Assembly: GCA_015492395.1 (NCBI GenBank)
Contig: WGFD01000326.1
Coordinates: forward strand, 1-10,415
DNA length: 10,415 bases
Direction: 5' to 3'
Source of the DNA: Deltaproteobacteria bacterium
Lineage (GTDB): Bacteria > Desulfobacterota > GWC2-55-46 > S146-70
Position 1 is the first letter of the stretch, and every line of letters begins with the position of its first letter. Of the stretch, positions 365 through 9,710 are shown one piece after another. The position numbers were made by a program, and so were the translations under genes. The notes under the pieces were generated by a model. It did not search any database, had not been told where the DNA came from, and saw only the letters and a program-made list of their open reading frames with translations.

Positions 365-1651
365 ATGACAAGGTATGCCACCAGGAACCTGCTCATAGCT
401 ATTTTCCTGCCTGCAATACTTCTTGCACTATGTAAGGCAGAGGTGGAAGCAACCCCCGTCTTCGCGAGAAAGCACAAGACGAGTTGTATGACCTGTCACG
501 AGGCCTTTCCAAAGCTCAACCCCTTCGGTGAATCATACAGAAGGAGGGGTTATCACTTTCCCGGAAACGACAACAAATATGTAAAAGAAAAACCCCTAAA
601 ACTCGGGGCGGATGCCTGGAAAAATGTATGGCCGTACGGTGTGTGGCCAAGTGATATACCAGGGGTTCCTCCGGTCGCTCTCCAGGCAAACTTCTTGTAC
701 AGATACAAGAACGATGCTCCGGTCAAGCATGACCTCACATTACCGGATGAAATCGAACTCCTATCAAGTGGCACCATTGGTAACGCTATCTCTTTCTTTG
801 CGACCATTGCCCTCGTAGAAGAGGGGAGTGAATTCGGCGGCATCGAGAGGGTATTCATCAGATTCAATGATCTCTTTATGGGAAGTTCTTCCAAGAGCCG
901 TGTCAATCTGACTATGGGTCAATTCGAACCGGCCTTTATAATCCTCTCCAACTTCCGCAGACTGACACATACACCATATATGTCCAATACCTCCCAGGTC
1001 GGCAAAAATAACTTCCAGTTCACAAGTCAGAGAGGCCTGGAAGCCAACGGCATATTCAGCGGACGTATTGACTATGCCGTCGGGGTCGTGAACGGGAACG
1101 GTACCGAAACACCCGGCAATACCTCCGACAACAACTCCATGAAGGACGTCTACGCATACATAGGCTATAAGTTGGGCGGTTTGACCCTGGACGGCTCAGG
1201 CATGACGGAAGAGGATCTGCTGTCCACGCACAGGGACGAGAGGTCAATCCATATGAAGGCCTTCGGTTACATCGGTGAAAACAGATTGGACATGCAACAA
1301 GAGGTAAATGACAGGTTCAACCGTTATGGTCTCGGAGTCGATCTGCGTTACGACAACGTAAACCTGCTTGGCACCTTATCCATAGGAAACCATAAAAACC
1401 CGAACAACGATTCCAGAAGATACGGCATATTTTCATATACAGTTGAAGCCGACGTCGTGATCTATCCATGGTTGATCGGAATCGCAAGGTATGAGAATGT
1501 TGACGTGGATTACTCACCCATGAGAGATGAGGTTGTTCTTGCCGTCGCCGCGCTCCTACGCGCCAATCTGAAGTTGACTATTGAAGGTTCCTTACACACG
1601 ATGGGTAACGATGGTGACACCGCCATTGCCAGGTTGGATCTTGTATTTTGA
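365..1651 (+). CDS. fused monohaem cytochrome c / outer-membrane porin, Cyc2-like
   Basis: Probably an outer-membrane electron-transfer protein in which a single c-type haem is attached to a beta-barrel. Seen: a basic then hydrophobic signal peptide (about 1-29), then one CxxCH haem motif (C41, C44, H45) inside TPVFARKHKTSCMTCH, followed by FPKLNPFG and RRGYHFPG. The rest (about 90-428) has alternating polar/hydrophobic strands typical of a barrel and ends in Phe, as outer-membrane barrels do. Known: Cyc2 iron oxidases share a single N-terminal haem motif of the PxFARxxxxxCxxCH type joined to a porin of 400-550 residues, so the 428-residue length fits. The start ATG has only a modest AGGG ribosome binding site. 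The next gene encodes a periplasmic cupredoxin-like protein, a pairing reminiscent of cyc2 and rusticyanin in the Acidithiobacillus rus operon. The substrate cannot be read from sequence; other porin-cytochromes with this N-terminus are uncharacterised. Confidence 0.75.
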   Translation: MTRYATRNLLIAIFLPAILLALCKAEVEATPVFARKHKTSCMTCHEAFPKLNPFGESYRRRGYHFPGNDNKYVKEKPLKLGADAWKNVWPYGVWPSDIPGVPPVALQANFLYRYKNDAPVKHDLTLPDEIELLSSGTIGNAISFFATIALVEEGSEFGGIERVFIRFNDLFMGSSSKSRVNLTMGQFEPAFIILSNFRRLTHTPYMSNTSQVGKNNFQFTSQRGLEANGIFSGRIDYAVGVVNGNGTETPGNTSDNNSMKDVYAYIGYKLGGLTLDGSGMTEEDLLSTHRDERSIHMKAFGYIGENRLDMQQEVNDRFNRYGLGVDLRYDNVNLLGTLSIGNHKNPNNDSRRYGIFSYTVEADVVIYPWLIGIARYENVDVDYSPMRDEVVLAVAALLRANLKLTIEGSLHTMGNDGDTAIARLDLVF

Positions 1652-1698
1652 TACTTTTATTTTTTGGGCTTTACCGATTATACTGCGAGGGGGAAGAT

Positions 1699-2331
1699 AT
1701 GTGTAATCCATGGAATCTGTTAAATAGGAACTGCAATTTGCTGAGGATAACCTTCTTTGTTCTATCCGTTATCTTGGGATTGGAACTTTGCATTCTCAAC
1801 GGTCGTACATTTTCAGAGACGATAACGGGTACGGTAAGTTACAAATCCCAGGACGACATAGGCAAGGCCGTGGTCTACATCAAGAAGGCGCCTGGGACCT
1901 TCTTTCCTCCGAAAAAACACCCAATAATGGACCAGATAGATCTTACCTTCGTCCCATATGTCCTGCCGATTGTCATTGGAACAACGGTCGATTTCCACAA
2001 CAGTGATGACGTATTGAACAATATATTCACACCATCATGGACCGGTCGCTACTTCAATCTCGGCACCTACCCAAAGAGCGTTGTCAGGTCCTTCACATTT
2101 GACCGCTTAGGCGAAGCCGTCTTGCTCTGCAAGATCCATCCTGAAATGGAAGGCTATATTCTGGTTCTCCAAAATCCCTACTTCGCCGTGCCGGATAAGC
2201 ATGGTCTATACAGGATAGATGGGGTACCGCCTGGTACATATAAGATCACAATGTGGTATAATAGGAAACCGGGACCGTTAATCAAGATAACCGTTAGCTC
2301 AGGCAAAGAGCTGGTAGTGGACTTCAAATAG
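1699..2331 (+). CDS. periplasmic cupredoxin-like (plastocyanin/amicyanin fold) protein with C-terminal beta-sandwich
   Basis: A 210-residue protein with a hydrophobic export segment (about 14-34), then a cupredoxin domain (about 40-160) and a short carboxypeptidase-regulatory-like stretch (161-210, with VPPGTYKITMWY). The C-terminal copper loop is present as C144-x2-H147-x2-M150, the amicyanin spacing. In related proteins the motif VxFxNxDxxxHNVF supplies the first His ligand; here the same place reads VDFHNSDDVLNNIF, with N107 where His is expected and a non-canonical H100 four residues into the motif. It may therefore bind copper differently or not at all. The start was chosen at ATG 1699 because GAGGGGGA lies just upstream; an in-frame TTG at 1648 overlapping the previous stop would add 17 residues but has no good ribosome binding site. 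It lies 47 bases after the cytochrome-porin gene, so probably the same operon; a role as its periplasmic electron acceptor is inference. Confidence 0.7.
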   Translation: MCNPWNLLNRNCNLLRITFFVLSVILGLELCILNGRTFSETITGTVSYKSQDDIGKAVVYIKKAPGTFFPPKKHPIMDQIDLTFVPYVLPIVIGTTVDFHNSDDVLNNIFTPSWTGRYFNLGTYPKSVVRSFTFDRLGEAVLLCKIHPEMEGYILVLQNPYFAVPDKHGLYRIDGVPPGTYKITMWYNRKPGPLIKITVSSGKELVVDFK

Positions 2332-6042: not shown

Positions 6043-6554
6043 ATGTCGATTACAACAGCTGCAGACGCTAAGGAAGCTGTAAACAGGTGGCTTAGGGAGA
6101 ATGGCCATACAGTCAATGACTCGAGGACCCGAGGGCAAACTTCCACTTCGAGGTGGACTATCCGATAGGAACCTTAAAGAGGCAGAGGGTCATTCAGCCG
6201 AAGGAGTTTCCCGGGCTTTGCGTGATATTGAGCGGTGTTGCCATAGCCGACGAACACAAGGAGAAGTTGAATGGGCTTGGTGAGGAGGAAAGAAGCACCT
6301 TCTACGACAAGATCAGAAAGGATCTCATCTTCCTGGACAACAGCTACGACATGGATATCGGCGAAGACGGTATCGCTCAGCAGATACAGTTCTCATACGA
6401 GTTTTACTTCGATGCCCTGACAAAGACCCAGATGTTCAAGGGGCTCTTATTGAACCACCGGACCCTTCTCTATATAGTAACGGTATTCAACGAGAAATTC
6501 GGTGTTCCGGTACTGGCTTCCCATCCGCAGGAGACGGTAGAAACCGTGCAATAG
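6043..6554 (+). pseudogene. DUF2299-like protein gene interrupted by a -1 frameshift
   Basis: Function unknown. The ATG at 6043 follows an excellent AAGGAGG site, but that frame runs only 41 codons to TAG at 6166-6168. From about 6126 the next frame continues the protein as DPRANFHFEVDYPIG, then VIQPKEFPGLCVILSGV, and on to TAG at 6552-6554. The two pieces would join into roughly 170 residues. The shift must fall after the TGA at 6117-6119 in the second frame, so within about 6120-6128; one missing base would explain it. The N-F-H-F...YP...IQPK...SGV pattern and the later YFDALTK segment match my memory of the DUF2299 family, best known from archaea. No classical slippery heptamer is visible, so a real mutation or an assembly error is likelier than programmed frameshifting. 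It has its own promoter upstream and a terminator downstream. Confidence 0.7.
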
Positions 6555-6666: not shown

Positions 6667-7503
6667 TCAGTGGTGATCGCAGCTGCTGCCCTCCTGCCCG
6701 GATATATTCTGCTTTAACGCCATGATCTCGGCATCCATCCTCTTTCGCGCCTCCGAATAGAGAGACGGGCTGTTCAATCTGTCACCAGGTTCCACAGGAA
6801 CATGCGCCTCTTCCAGCCTCTCCATATCACGCAGGAGCGACCTCTTCTTAGCCGGATCGATATGTTCGTTTATCATACCGAATAGCTCATTGTTCTCCTT
6901 ACTGATATGGTTCTTGAGGTTAGCTACAATAGATCCCAGGATACCATCCTGTATATCCCCATCCTGCAGGGCGCCCCTTACAGAGTGAAGAAGGGCGATG
7001 AACTCCTCATGGTCTTCGTGCATTATCGCCAGAAGAGAAGGGCCCATGGGGATCAGATCGCGAACGGCCGGGAACAGTACCTTCTCTTCCTTCGTCATGG
7101 AGTGGAGCATGATATCATTCTCAACCGCAGCCGTTGTAATCCATAGACCGTCCACGTCCCTCTTGCGAACCTGTTCCTCTATGCGGTCGAGCTTCTTCAA
7201 TACTTCACCGTGTTCGGCCATCAGAACCTCTAACGGATCCTCGCTCTTGCTATCCTCAACGCCGGCCTCGGCACCACCGGTCTCTGCTGCCGTACCTTCA
7301 CCTTCGATGGATACAACGCTGAATGGCTGTGAAAAGCCAAGGCGGCAGACATCCCGGGGACTCTTGAAGGTATCCCCCGCCTCCAAGGCAGCCGATAACT
7401 CGCTAAAGACCGACTCCTCCAACAACAGCTCTCCCTTCTTGCAGAAGACCTGGCATGAGGGGTGAAGACACCTGTATTTTACCTTTATCATACTATCGGC
7501 CAC
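6667..7503 (-). CDS. hemerythrin (HHE) domain protein with Cys-rich N-terminus and Cys-His tail
   Basis: Probable cytoplasmic di-iron protein of 278 residues for O2 or NO sensing, binding or iron handling. The hemerythrin-like core spans about 88-230: EHGEV (H98), H134 with E139/E140 in KEEKVLFP, HEDHEEF (H162, H165), and NHISKE (H199, E203). The N-terminal 60 residues hold C12, C17, C21 and C53, a possible metal site not part of the core, and are joined by a Gly/Ala/Glu-rich linker (68-88). The chain ends SSCDHH. The start is GTG at 7503, preceded by GGAGG seven bases away; the ATG at 7491 is too far from it. A promoter of its own lies at 7546-7574. It follows narK on the same strand, which fits a role in nitrogen-oxide or oxygen stress. 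The ligand cannot be inferred. Confidence 0.8.
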   Translation of the reverse strand: MADSMIKVKYRCLHPSCQVFCKKGELLLEESVFSELSAALEAGDTFKSPRDVCRLGFSQPFSVVSIEGEGTAAETGGAEAGVEDSKSEDPLEVLMAEHGEVLKKLDRIEEQVRKRDVDGLWITTAAVENDIMLHSMTKEEKVLFPAVRDLIPMGPSLLAIMHEDHEEFIALLHSVRGALQDGDIQDGILGSIVANLKNHISKENNELFGMINEHIDPAKKRSLLRDMERLEEAHVPVEPGDRLNSPSLYSEARKRMDAEIMALKQNISGQEGSSCDHH

Positions 7504-7527
7504 GGTGAAACCTCCATGATCTTTATT

Positions 7528-7566
7528 GTACTCCGTTTTACATCAAGTATAGCAGATGGTACTCCG
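7528..7566 (-). repeat. direct repeats flanking the hemerythrin -10 box
   Basis: On the minus strand CGGAGTAC occurs at 7566-7559 (inside the spacer) and 7535-7528 (just after the start site), extended as CGGAGTACNAT. The 31-base period is about three helical turns, so both copies face the same side of the DNA. The placement over promoter elements suits a repressor site; this is inference. Confidence 0.4.
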
Positions 7567-7574
7567 GCTTGCAA
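7546..7574 (-). promoter_or_regulatory. sigma-70 promoter of the hemerythrin gene
   Basis: On the minus strand: TTGCAA (-35, 7574-7569), a 17-base spacer, TATACT (-10, 7551-7546). Four of six and five of six consensus matches with ideal spacing; predicted start near 7539, about 36 bases before the GTG. Confidence 0.6.
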
Positions 7575-7584
7575 GGTTTTCCAA

Positions 7585-7622
7585 GATAAGAGACCCCCCA
7601 AAAAAAGGGGGGGTCTCTTATC
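7585..7622 (-). terminator. strong hairpin between narK and the hemerythrin gene
   Basis: GATAAGAGACCCCCC (7585-7599) pairs with GGGGGGTCTCTTATC (7608-7622), a perfect 15-base stem around AAAAAAAG. It lies 14 bases after the narK stop. On the minus strand the loop is CTTTTTTT, but no T-run follows the stem, so it is not a textbook terminator. It may stop transcription, block 3' decay of the usp-narK message, or both. Confidence 0.6.
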
Positions 7623-7635
7623 AATCCGCCGATAA

Positions 7636-9117
7636 TTACATATGTCCTTCTTTCATCAGTTCACGGTCAACCGACGAAAGGTGATATTCCTCGGAGAAGC
7701 CGCCATGGGGCTCCTTGAGAAAGATAAGGCAGAAGATGAAGCTGAAGAACGCGCCCGCGGCAATGATGAAGAAGAACTGGTTGGGGGTAACAAATGTGAA
7801 CACGGTAAGATAGAAGACCGCCCCCACGTTACCGTAGGCCCCCGCCATACCCGAGATCTGGCCGGTAATACGCCTCTTTATCATGGGTATGATGGCGAAT
7901 GTGGCGCCCTCGGCGCCCTGAACGAACATCGAGCAGGCGATTGTGAGTATAACCGCCAGGACTATAGGCCAGCTTGAGTTGATCAGCCCCATGCCGAAGA
8001 ATCCCGCGGAGATACCGAACATGTAGATAAGCATGATCAATTTACGGCTGCTCAGTTTATCCGAAAGGACGCCCCCCAAAGGCCTTGCGAAGAGGTTCAC
8101 GAAGGCGAACGAGGCGGCGACCAGACCCGCCTTGTGGGGATCGATACCGTAGATCCCTTCGAAAAATGCCGGGAGCATGGAGACGACAGCCAGCTCCGCG
8201 CCGAAGTTACAGAAGTAAGTTGTGTTAAGGGCGGCCACCTGGTTGAAGTTGTACTTGTCATCCTCTGGCACGCCCTTTCTAAGTATCGGCATGTTCACCA
8301 TGAAGATCTGCACGATCTGGTACAGGACGATCAAGGCGATGGCAACATATGCTATGGCAGCGCCTGTCGCACCAAGGAAATCCATGCTGTTCAACCTCCA
8401 TACCAGTATGGACAGAATCCCTACTGGCGGAATCGTGAAGATGATGAGCTTGATCATGTCGGCCCAACTGCTCACCTCCATGGCCGCGACCTTTCTTGGT
8501 TTGTGCAGCATGGTGCCCTTAGGCCCATCCGTTATGGCAAACCGGTAGAATATCCCGTAAAGAAGCATGATCACGCCGCTTGTCGCGATGGCGTACCTCC
8601 AGCCGTTCGCGCCGCCGAATATATTCAAGGCTATGGTGGGTATGGTCATAGCGGCGGCGGCGGAACCGAAGTTGCCCCAGCCCGCGTAGAAGCCCTCGGC
8701 AAAGCCTATATCCTTCGGTTTGAACCAGAGAGCCGTCATATGAATACCGACGACAAAGCTGGCGCCCACGGAACTGAGGATTAGACGGGATACCAGGAGC
8801 TGAACGAAGGAGTTGCCGAAGGCGAAGAAGAAGGTCGGGATCGCCATTATGATCATTAATGTAGAAAAGACCCTCCTCGGACCATACCTGTCCTGGGCCA
8901 TGCCTACTATGAGGCGCGCTGGGATAGTTAAGGCGACGTTACAGATGGCGAAGACCTTCAACTCCCTTGATGTCAGCCACCCGACCTCCTTGATCATAGT
9001 GGTGGCGAGGGGCGCCATATTAAACCATACATAAAAGGTTATAAAGAATGCTATCCAGGTAAGATGTAGTGCCCTGATCTCCGGGTTGGACACTTTAAAG
9101 AGTGATGATACCTTCAT
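7636..9117 (-). CDS. narK: NarK-family nitrate/nitrite transporter (major facilitator superfamily)
   Basis: Inner-membrane porter of 493 residues moving nitrate and/or nitrite. Seen: twelve hydrophobic helices; the MFS signature after helix 2 (GMAQDRYGPRR, 72-82); R68 (PARLIVG) and R345 (FARPLGG), in the places of the two substrate-binding arginines of E. coli NarK (R89, R305); and both glycine-rich nitrate signatures, GWGNFGSAAA (146-155) and GMAGAYGNVGAVFY (423-436). The N-terminus NPEIRALHLTW is common to NarK proteins. Length is usual for single-domain NarK. The ATG has GAAGGAGGA upstream. It lies 69 bases after the universal stress gene, probably in one transcript from the promoter at 9811-9839. 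Direction (uptake, nitrite export or exchange) cannot be decided from sequence, and no nitrate reductase is in the window. Confidence 0.9.
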   Translation of the reverse strand: MKVSSLFKVSNPEIRALHLTWIAFFITFYVWFNMAPLATTMIKEVGWLTSRELKVFAICNVALTIPARLIVGMAQDRYGPRRVFSTLMIIMAIPTFFFAFGNSFVQLLVSRLILSSVGASFVVGIHMTALWFKPKDIGFAEGFYAGWGNFGSAAAAMTIPTIALNIFGGANGWRYAIATSGVIMLLYGIFYRFAITDGPKGTMLHKPRKVAAMEVSSWADMIKLIIFTIPPVGILSILVWRLNSMDFLGATGAAIAYVAIALIVLYQIVQIFMVNMPILRKGVPEDDKYNFNQVAALNTTYFCNFGAELAVVSMLPAFFEGIYGIDPHKAGLVAASFAFVNLFARPLGGVLSDKLSSRKLIMLIYMFGISAGFFGMGLINSSWPIVLAVILTIACSMFVQGAEGATFAIIPMIKRRITGQISGMAGAYGNVGAVFYLTVFTFVTPNQFFFIIAAGAFFSFIFCLIFLKEPHGGFSEEYHLSSVDRELMKEGHM

Positions 9118-9186
9118 TTATAATTATCCTCCTTCTAGATGGATTTCAGTGGACCTATGATAAACCCACAGGCAGCCTCCGATCTG

Positions 9187-9603
9187 CTATCGTTTCAGAG
9201 TCATAACCAGAACAGGACGCTCCGAATGGCGAACAACAAAGGCACTCACACTACCCAGTATCATCCTTTCCATCTCGCTCTTGCCCCTTCGCGCCACCAC
9301 GACCAGATCAGGTGATTTTTTCCGTATCGCCTCGGTAATCATCTGCCTCGGGTCACCTACCGCAAGCACGGCATCCACTTCAAGACCACACTCGGCAACC
9401 CACTCCGCCTCCCTCCTGAGCTCGTTATGGCACTGTTCACGCCATTGCTCCAGTATGGCCTCATTTTCCATGCTGGCATCGAGCGGTTCTTGGGCGACGG
9501 TCAGGAGTATTATGGTAGGTTTCTGAGATTTAAAATATTCGATAGTCTTCTCCAGCGCCTTATGAGACCTCTCCGAACCGTCATGACAGACCATTATATT
9601 CAT
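9187..9603 (-). CDS. universal stress protein (UspA family)
   Basis: Small cytoplasmic nucleotide-binding stress protein of 138 residues. Seen: first strand NIMVCHDGSERS with D8, the conserved acidic residue near the adenine; and the C-terminal loop A104-R-R-G107-x9-G117-S118, matching the ATP-binding G-x2-G-x9-G-S/T motif except for Ala in the first place. The final strand RPVLVMTLKR is typical. ATG 9603 was chosen because GGAGG (9616-9612) lies eight bases upstream and the family fold begins there; the open frame runs on to a GTG at 9702, but the extra 33 residues look unlike the family and contain the hairpin and ribosome site. It is the first gene of the usp-narK unit. UspA genes beside respiratory genes often respond to anaerobiosis; here the FNR-like box supports that. 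Confidence 0.88.
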   Translation of the reverse strand: MNIMVCHDGSERSHKALEKTIEYFKSQKPTIILLTVAQEPLDASMENEAILEQWREQCHNELRREAEWVAECGLEVDAVLAVGDPRQMITEAIRKKSPDLVVVARRGKSEMERMILGSVSAFVVRHSERPVLVMTLKR

Positions 9604-9622
9604 TATTAATACCTCCGTCACT

Positions 9623-9640
9623 CCTGATCCAAGAATCAGG
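9623..9640 (-). repeat. hairpin just upstream of the usp ribosome binding site
   Basis: CCTGAT (9623-9628) and ATCAGG (9635-9640) form a perfect six-base stem with a six-base loop, six bases before GGAGG on the minus strand. It may influence translation of usp or be a processing site. Confidence 0.45.
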
Positions 9641-9698
9641 CTATTTCCTGCGATGAGAGCACACTTCTTATAAAACAATCTTATATATCTCTCTCGAC

Positions 9699-9710
9699 TC
9701 ACCTCCTTTC
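9699..9710 (-). promoter_or_regulatory. very strong Shine-Dalgarno-like sequence without a start codon in range
   Basis: GAAAGGAGGTGA on the minus strand is almost fully complementary to the 16S rRNA 3' end. No ATG, GTG or TTG lies at normal distance after it; the only GTG overlaps it. The true usp start is about 100 bases downstream with its own GGAGG. It could be a ribosome standby site or a relic. Confidence 0.4.

Follow-up and report, generated by a model that had tools for sequence, protein, structure and literature searches.

A Cyc2-like cytochrome-porin and an altered cupredoxin are encoded with sensor genes in a deltaproteobacterial lineage

Introduction

To our knowledge, it is an open question which periplasmic protein acts with Cyc2-type proteins in bacteria that are neutrophilic or uncultured. 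It is raised by a deltaproteobacterial contig on which the gene for a Cyc2-like cytochrome-porin is followed by one for an exported cupredoxin and then by two sensor genes. Do these genes form a respiratory module, or could they serve to sense redox conditions outside the cell? A sequence-only reading of this DNA had proposed a path from a porin haem to a periplasmic carrier, citing rusticyanin of Acidithiobacillus as the known parallel, with sensory genes attached downstream.

In the available text on the Acidithiobacillus rus operon, the gene order is cyc2, cyc1, coxBACD, rus (PMC10654088), and partial texts describe a cupredoxin cluster in Sideroxydans (PMC12016527) and a putative complex containing a cupredoxin in Tenderia (PMC5371394). 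The accessible portions of a mainly open literature on Cyc2 with plastocyanin, cupredoxin and histidine kinase (including PMC12442345, PMC10367259 and PMC9040806) held no description of a Cyc2-like/cupredoxin pair.

Results

The window, that is, the whole stretch of DNA analysed, is one entire contig of 10,415 bases from a draft genome of 2.09 Mb that is 93% complete (Table 1). The positions, the CMTCH haem motif and the gap of 47 bases between the Cyc2-like and cupredoxin genes given by the sequence-only reading were all correct, and its observation is confirmed. A frameshift artefact was rejected on the open reading frames, and a chance pairing on the loci of relatives, which keep the pair. 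In the whole 10,415-base window no response regulator was found, and neither open reading frames nor domain search revealed a recognisable cyc1, cox or other further electron-transfer gene. On the minus strand, the NarK-family transporter scored 312.3 bits against a cut-off of 311.7, and a small protein has a Pfam match only below cut-off. The tRNA search of the window found none, and scans for promoters (12 against 9.6 in shuffles) and terminators (4 against 5.5) did no better than shuffled sequence.

Table 1. Features of the window, with the evidence for each.
Feature	Position	Strand	Evidence
Cyc2-like cytochrome-porin, 428 aa	365..1651	+	ORF, homologues, AlphaFold2
Residues 29-37, ATPVFARKH, counterpart of Cyc2 motif AXPXFAR[Q/K][T/Y]	449..475	+	sequence
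Haem-binding CMTCH, residues 41-45	485..499	+	sequence, alignment
Predicted 16-strand beta barrel, residues 105-427	677..1645	+	AlphaFold2/DSSP, Foldseek
Exported cupredoxin with C-terminal CarboxypepD_reg-like domain, 210 aa, Asn-type copper site	1699..2331	+	
Cupredoxin domain, residues 71-157	1909..2169	+	
Asn107, codon AAC, at place of first His copper ligand	2017..2019	+	alignments, codon
Cys144, His147, Met150, other three type-1 copper ligand positions (C-x2-H-x2-M)	2128..2148	+	
CarboxypepD_reg-like domain, residues 163-209	2185..2325	+	Pfam match below cut-off
HAMP + PAS membrane protein, 395 aa	2542..3729	+	domain search
dCache-HAMP-HisKA-HATPase_c histidine kinase, 662 aa	3811..5799	+	domain search; gene order repeated in relatives
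DUF2299 protein, after sensor genes	6153-6554		64.8 bits, cut-off 22.8
Hemerythrin-domain protein, NarK-family nitrate/nitrite transporter, universal stress protein	6667-9702	minus	

The hallmarks of Cyc2, in the available text of Keffer et al. 2021 (PMC8406198), are AXPXFAR[Q/K][T/Y] before a CXXCH, PXL after it, a length of at least 365 residues and a fused porin, which in PV-1 Cyc2 is a 16-strand barrel. The haem region of the window protein reads ATPVFARKH-KTS-CMTCH-EAF-PKL. The stretch A29-x-P31-x-F33-A34-R35-K36 follows AXPXFAR[Q/K], CMTCH near the N terminus is the sole CXXCH of the translation, and P49-K50-L51 supplies the PXL. Like Cyc2 as described there, the protein thus has one CXXCH and exceeds 365 residues, and its model places a 16-strand barrel behind a short cytochrome; it differs at the last motif position, where His37 replaces Thr or Tyr, and in its setting, with a CarboxypepD_reg-type cupredoxin as partner and sensors next. 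Among 71 aligned relatives, position 37 is Tyr in at least 90%. Homologues were retrieved from E 4.6e-226 downwards, and C41, T43, C44 and H45 are invariant in a 22-row alignment. The AlphaFold2 model, built from 71 sequences, has a pLDDT of 85.7 and led Foldseek to porins, so that a reading without a barrel was rejected; confidence is low at residues 21-40, which leaves the position of the haem in the model uncertain. NCBIfam held no match for either the Cyc2-like protein or the cupredoxin, and a sequence search of the PDB with the former gave nothing useful.

A paralogue in the same genome (G000:C348) carries the canonical motif AVPAFARQT. Comparison of its family profile with that of the Cyc2-like protein aligned 354 columns, most of the length of both families, with a probability of 99.8 and an E-value of 8.6e-29. 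On these sequence grounds we regard the window barrel protein as Cyc2-like and homologous to the canonical-motif paralogue. The single-haem outer-membrane barrel proposed earlier is therefore borne out by the haem motif and the predicted 16 strands, and its likeness to Cyc2 by agreement at all but one of the hallmark positions and by this homology. The paralogue gene itself (L114:268-1587), a second Cyc2-type gene of the genome with the motif AVPAFARQTG...CNTCH, has counterparts of the same FARQT type at L117 and L119-L122; a gene for a protein of about 300 residues follows in five of these six loci (L117 ends), and the cupredoxin is absent from all six.

The second gene encodes a protein with a cupredoxin fold, in which the Cys, second His and axial Met of a type-1 copper site stand at their expected places and Asn107 occupies that of the first His. 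Among the 120 homologues listed of 242 found, the first-ligand residue is His in 64, Asn in 55 and Pro in 1; the alignments indicate a change from His to Asn in this clade, with Cys, His and Met kept. These three residues are invariant in 55 distinct Asn-type domains, which is moderate evidence only, because 26 of 84 columns are equally invariant. Glu151, adjoining Met150, is found in 66 of 67 Asn-type rows against 72 of 137 other rows, and could act as a substitute copper ligand. Across the 205 aligned rows, no new conserved His or Cys appears in the Asn-type domain. His100, in 'FHNSDD', was rejected as a replacement ligand, being His in 50 of 67 Asn-type rows and Ile in 12. The counts for Glu151 and His100 take in all 205 aligned rows, duplicates included; one comparison used 195 of the 205, with duplicates and short rows dropped. 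In three proteins of the Asn clade (P0115, P0116 and P0122), the first ligand position is His, as though it had been regained and the site could still be used.

Database names of the cupredoxin's relatives are 'plastocyanin' or 'methylamine utilization protein', and the clade has lost the first His ligand; a likeness of the copper protein to rusticyanin thus found no support. Rusticyanin is absent among the matches listed in the cupredoxin-domain comparisons, lists that leave room for it. Compared with plastocyanin, amicyanin and the purple cupredoxin 5fc9, the window protein has Asn for the first His and a C-terminal CarboxypepD_reg-like domain. The accessible parts of the literature searched for such an Asn-type site held no description of it. 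Another cupredoxin of the same genome (L115:121-774, G000:C187), a weak family match at 19.6 bits, has His at the first ligand place, as judged by eye.

We surveyed the pair in the best 80 of 312 confirmed stretches of a genome collection, whose labels include Deltaproteobacteria, Nitrospinae, Bacteroidetes/Ignavibacteria, Zixibacteria, Neomarinimicrobiota, Omnitrophota, Planctomycetes, Acidobacteria and others. Taking the nearest same-strand cupredoxin per locus, we found one in the DNA flanking the Cyc2-like gene in 72 of these best 80 of 312, counting L071, where it is cut by the contig end, and L076, where the fourth place is Glu. It lies at most 1.5 kb from the best-scoring cyc copy in 66 of the 80 (62 downstream, 4 upstream) and further away in L041, L046, L058, L059, L068 and L098; L041 has a second cyc copy 0.6 kb from the cupredoxin. 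Eight loci have no same-strand cupredoxin (L048, L051, L053, L055, L067, L070, L088, L110). Three of them (L053, L067, L110) carry one on the opposite strand, and four stretches (L051, L055, L070, L088) end no more than about 0.5 kb after the Cyc2-like gene. The first ligand is Asn in nine of the 72 paired loci (L032-L039 and L064) and His in 63.

Distances among the Cyc2-like proteins correlate with those among their cupredoxins (70 pairs; Mantel r 0.43, 0 of 2000 permutations as high), also for the 59 His-type pairs alone (r 0.34, 0 of 2000 as high), a pattern that inheritance along the species tree alone can give. The 70 pairs, 59 His-type and 11 Asn-type, were drawn from the 80 loci, the window and L168-L170, with less than 1.5 kb between open-frame ends, a cupredoxin score above 100 and a cyc score above 350; L170 and L032, equal in length and gene order, are probably one contig counted twice. 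As a control, other Cyc2-type genes of the class were examined at eight loci, and none of these showed a family cupredoxin at E<=1. In a phylum sample of 297 genomes, a strong Cyc2-like match (>300 bits) occurred in six, all with a cupredoxin, and the two genes were adjacent in five; in the sixth, G249, the Cyc2-like match is partial (profile positions 1-282) and on a different contig from the cupredoxin. At the limits used, nine genomes of this sample with weaker Cyc2-like matches (118-257 bits) had no cupredoxin match, and 14 of 20 cupredoxin-bearing genomes had no Cyc2-like match. In the 77 genomes of Nitrospinae, the phylum of L039, only the genome already known has either gene at the limits used.

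The pair is thus conserved in related genomes and in many phyla, far from the case of genomes that never keep the two genes together, and this conservation supports the outer-membrane haem-porin and the periplasmic cupredoxin as probable partners. A search of plasmids gave no match with the Cyc2-like protein and only four partial matches with the FARQT paralogue. One of the four, a Caballeronia 'cytochrome C' gene, was set aside (family profile probability 25%, haem region not covered by the match); it adjoins HiPIP and c-type cytochrome genes, with no cupredoxin annotated in 10.3 kb.

Beyond the pair, the Asn-type clade keeps the sensor genes. The domain search found no kinase domain in the HAMP-PAS protein; the next gene product has the make-up of a two-component kinase, with HisKA and HATPase_c behind a periplasmic dCache_1 sensor domain and HAMP. 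The order cupredoxin, HAMP-PAS protein, dCache kinase recurs in seven of the nine Asn-type loci (L032, L034-L038, L064), in the window and in L166. The L033 stretch ends after the cupredoxin, and in L039 a dCache kinase precedes the pair, while two further kinases follow it, one a HAMP hybrid and one of receiver-PAS type. Upstream of the module in L037 (3536-9504), and also in L035 and L036, are proteins resembling Cas1 and Cas4; a 747-aa RuvC-type protein of L037 may, we presume, be a compact Cas9.

Of the 63 class genomes examined, nine carry the Asn-type cupredoxin (scores of at least 260 bits, next 108), and exactly these nine carry the HAMP-PAS protein (at least 422 bits, next 121). The two are adjacent in eight; the exception is G001, whose cupredoxin lies close to the end of one contig and whose HAMP-PAS protein is on another. 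The Cyc2-like gene (at least 449 bits, next 63; 59 genomes) is present in eight of the nine. It was not found in the ninth, G005, which is listed as 100% complete, nor in the 16 kb around its cupredoxin, where the cupredoxin, HAMP-PAS and kinase genes form a tight, intact row, the last two overlapping by four bases. L166:8124-11938 comprises genes for an Asn-type cupredoxin, a HAMP-PAS protein and a kinase without a Cyc2-like gene. The loss in G005 says which genes stay together: in the class examined, the cupredoxin goes more strictly with the HAMP-PAS protein and the dCache kinase than with the Cyc2-like protein, a dissociation that represents one loss in one draft genome, and the agreement of the nine genomes does not amount to nine independent events because they are related. 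The sensory genes noted earlier as attached downstream are indeed there, and mere attachment describes them poorly, with the HAMP-PAS protein accompanying the cupredoxin in nine of nine genomes and the Cyc2-like protein in eight.

We counted neighbours on the same strand among the three preceding and the five following genes, in the window and in 78 of the 80 loci (all but L086 and L100, which lack a gene model; 79 loci in total); labels were assigned by similarity to seeds, without a background rate. Histidine kinases occur in 35 loci, response regulators in 31, Rieske proteins in 14, GltD-like flavoproteins in 10, cytochromes b in 9 and octahaem cytochromes in 9; His-type pairs therefore often lie in what looks like a respiratory operon. 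In L083, L089, L096, L111 and others, the pair is followed by a GltD-like flavoprotein, Rieske protein, cytochrome b, and eight-haem and one-haem cytochromes, and several such sets, which look like electron-transport operons, have a kinase and regulators upstream; the neighbours in L111 were checked by Pfam.

A His-type cupredoxin directly precedes kinase genes in L054, L061, L063, L072, L075 and L082 (by Pfam for three of the six). On the plasmid of Caballeronia sp. SBC2 (L171:6001-8986), one ends 10 bases before a dCache-HAMP-GGDEF-EAL gene. This 'methylamine utilization protein' is related to the window cupredoxin (30.5% identity over 88%, E 2e-16) and shares with it the CarboxypepD_reg match and a dCache signalling gene next to it; it differs in its His-type site and GGDEF-EAL partner, and no cytochrome is annotated in its 12.6 kb stretch. 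A Sinorhizobium relative has no signalling neighbour annotated.

Discussion

This set of genes probably serves either to transfer or to sense electrons from outside the cell. To the reading that, in this lineage, the outer-membrane-to-periplasm relay is an extracellular-redox sensing or sensor-gated electron-transfer unit we give about an even chance. The Cyc2-like protein, presumably loaded with haem, would exchange electrons with a small extracellular redox partner, for which, going by the Cyc2 family, dissolved Fe(II) is the first candidate. The periplasmic cupredoxin, if it holds copper, would be its electron partner and would report the state of the relay to the two inner-membrane sensors. 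Inward flow of electrons from Fe(II) is what we infer by analogy with Cyc2. In a bolder form, the cytochrome-porin would read the outside redox state and the cupredoxin, with an Asn-Cys-His-Met site to which Glu151 perhaps contributes, would be a redox-switched messenger for a split sensor made of the HAMP-PAS protein and the dCache kinase, and not a respiratory carrier; this we propose only tentatively and consider somewhat unlikely. Several observations weigh against the favoured reading: no response regulator was found in the window, two-component genes often just control a neighbouring respiratory module, the pair has respiratory neighbours in other phyla, genomes of the phylum sample have one of the two genes without the other at the limits used, the Sinorhizobium relative has no annotated signalling neighbour, and His37 departs from the Cyc2 motif.

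We favour a sensing or sensor-gated role in this lineage, and the main rival is a plain respiratory module regulated by its neighbours, a real possibility if one short of even. The Cyc2-like protein would oxidise Fe(II) or something similar, the cupredoxin would pass electrons to a periplasmic cytochrome and on to an oxidase or nitrate reductase encoded elsewhere, and the sensors would only regulate the operon. Cyc2 homology and motif speak for it, as do the respiratory neighbours of the pair in other phyla. The genome has four COX1 (Pfam) matches, all over cut-off and two below 50 bits, and encodes a narG-type nitrate reductase, so that respiration with oxygen or nitrate is possible; the NarK-family transporter of the window fits as well. 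However, the window offers no further recognised electron-transfer gene, the sensors stay with the cupredoxin where the Cyc2-like gene has gone (G005), and the loss of a copper ligand would be odd for a pure carrier. The rus operon (PMC10654088), as far as its available text goes, likewise encodes a Cyc2-type protein with a small protein of blue-copper fold; the window differs in that no cyc1 or cox gene is recognised in it, sensors come next, and the copper protein is plastocyanin/amicyanin-like, with an extra domain and Asn at the first ligand. The earlier path from porin haem to periplasmic carrier is partly supported: its fold, motif and conserved pair stand, and a likeness of the carrier to rusticyanin lacks support.

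Could the Asn-type cupredoxin lack a type-1 copper centre altogether and serve the sensors as a folded adaptor or docking protein? The exchange of the first His for Asn, in a domain that gained no other conserved His or Cys, would suit this rather unlikely alternative, whereas the invariance of Cys144, His147 and Met150 (moderate evidence), the near-fixed Glu151 as a possible substitute ligand and the three members of the clade with His at the first place argue for a site that may still bind copper. That electrons leave through the Cyc2-like protein towards an extracellular acceptor is improbable: the Rieske and cytochrome b neighbours in other phyla are compatible with either direction, but the experimentally studied Cyc2 proteins are, in the available text of two reports, Fe(II) oxidases (PMC8406198, PMC7029218).

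The favoured sensing or sensor-gated role bears on annotation, since a search with Cyc2 HMMs would probably assign such genes to iron oxidation, and a sensory variant would therefore matter for the reading of metagenomes. The pair, retained in many phyla, offers a testable candidate for the periplasmic partner of Cyc2-type proteins. Within this lineage, the natural loss of a type-1 copper ligand throughout a clade, if tied to the sensor genes, would show how an electron carrier can turn into a signalling protein.
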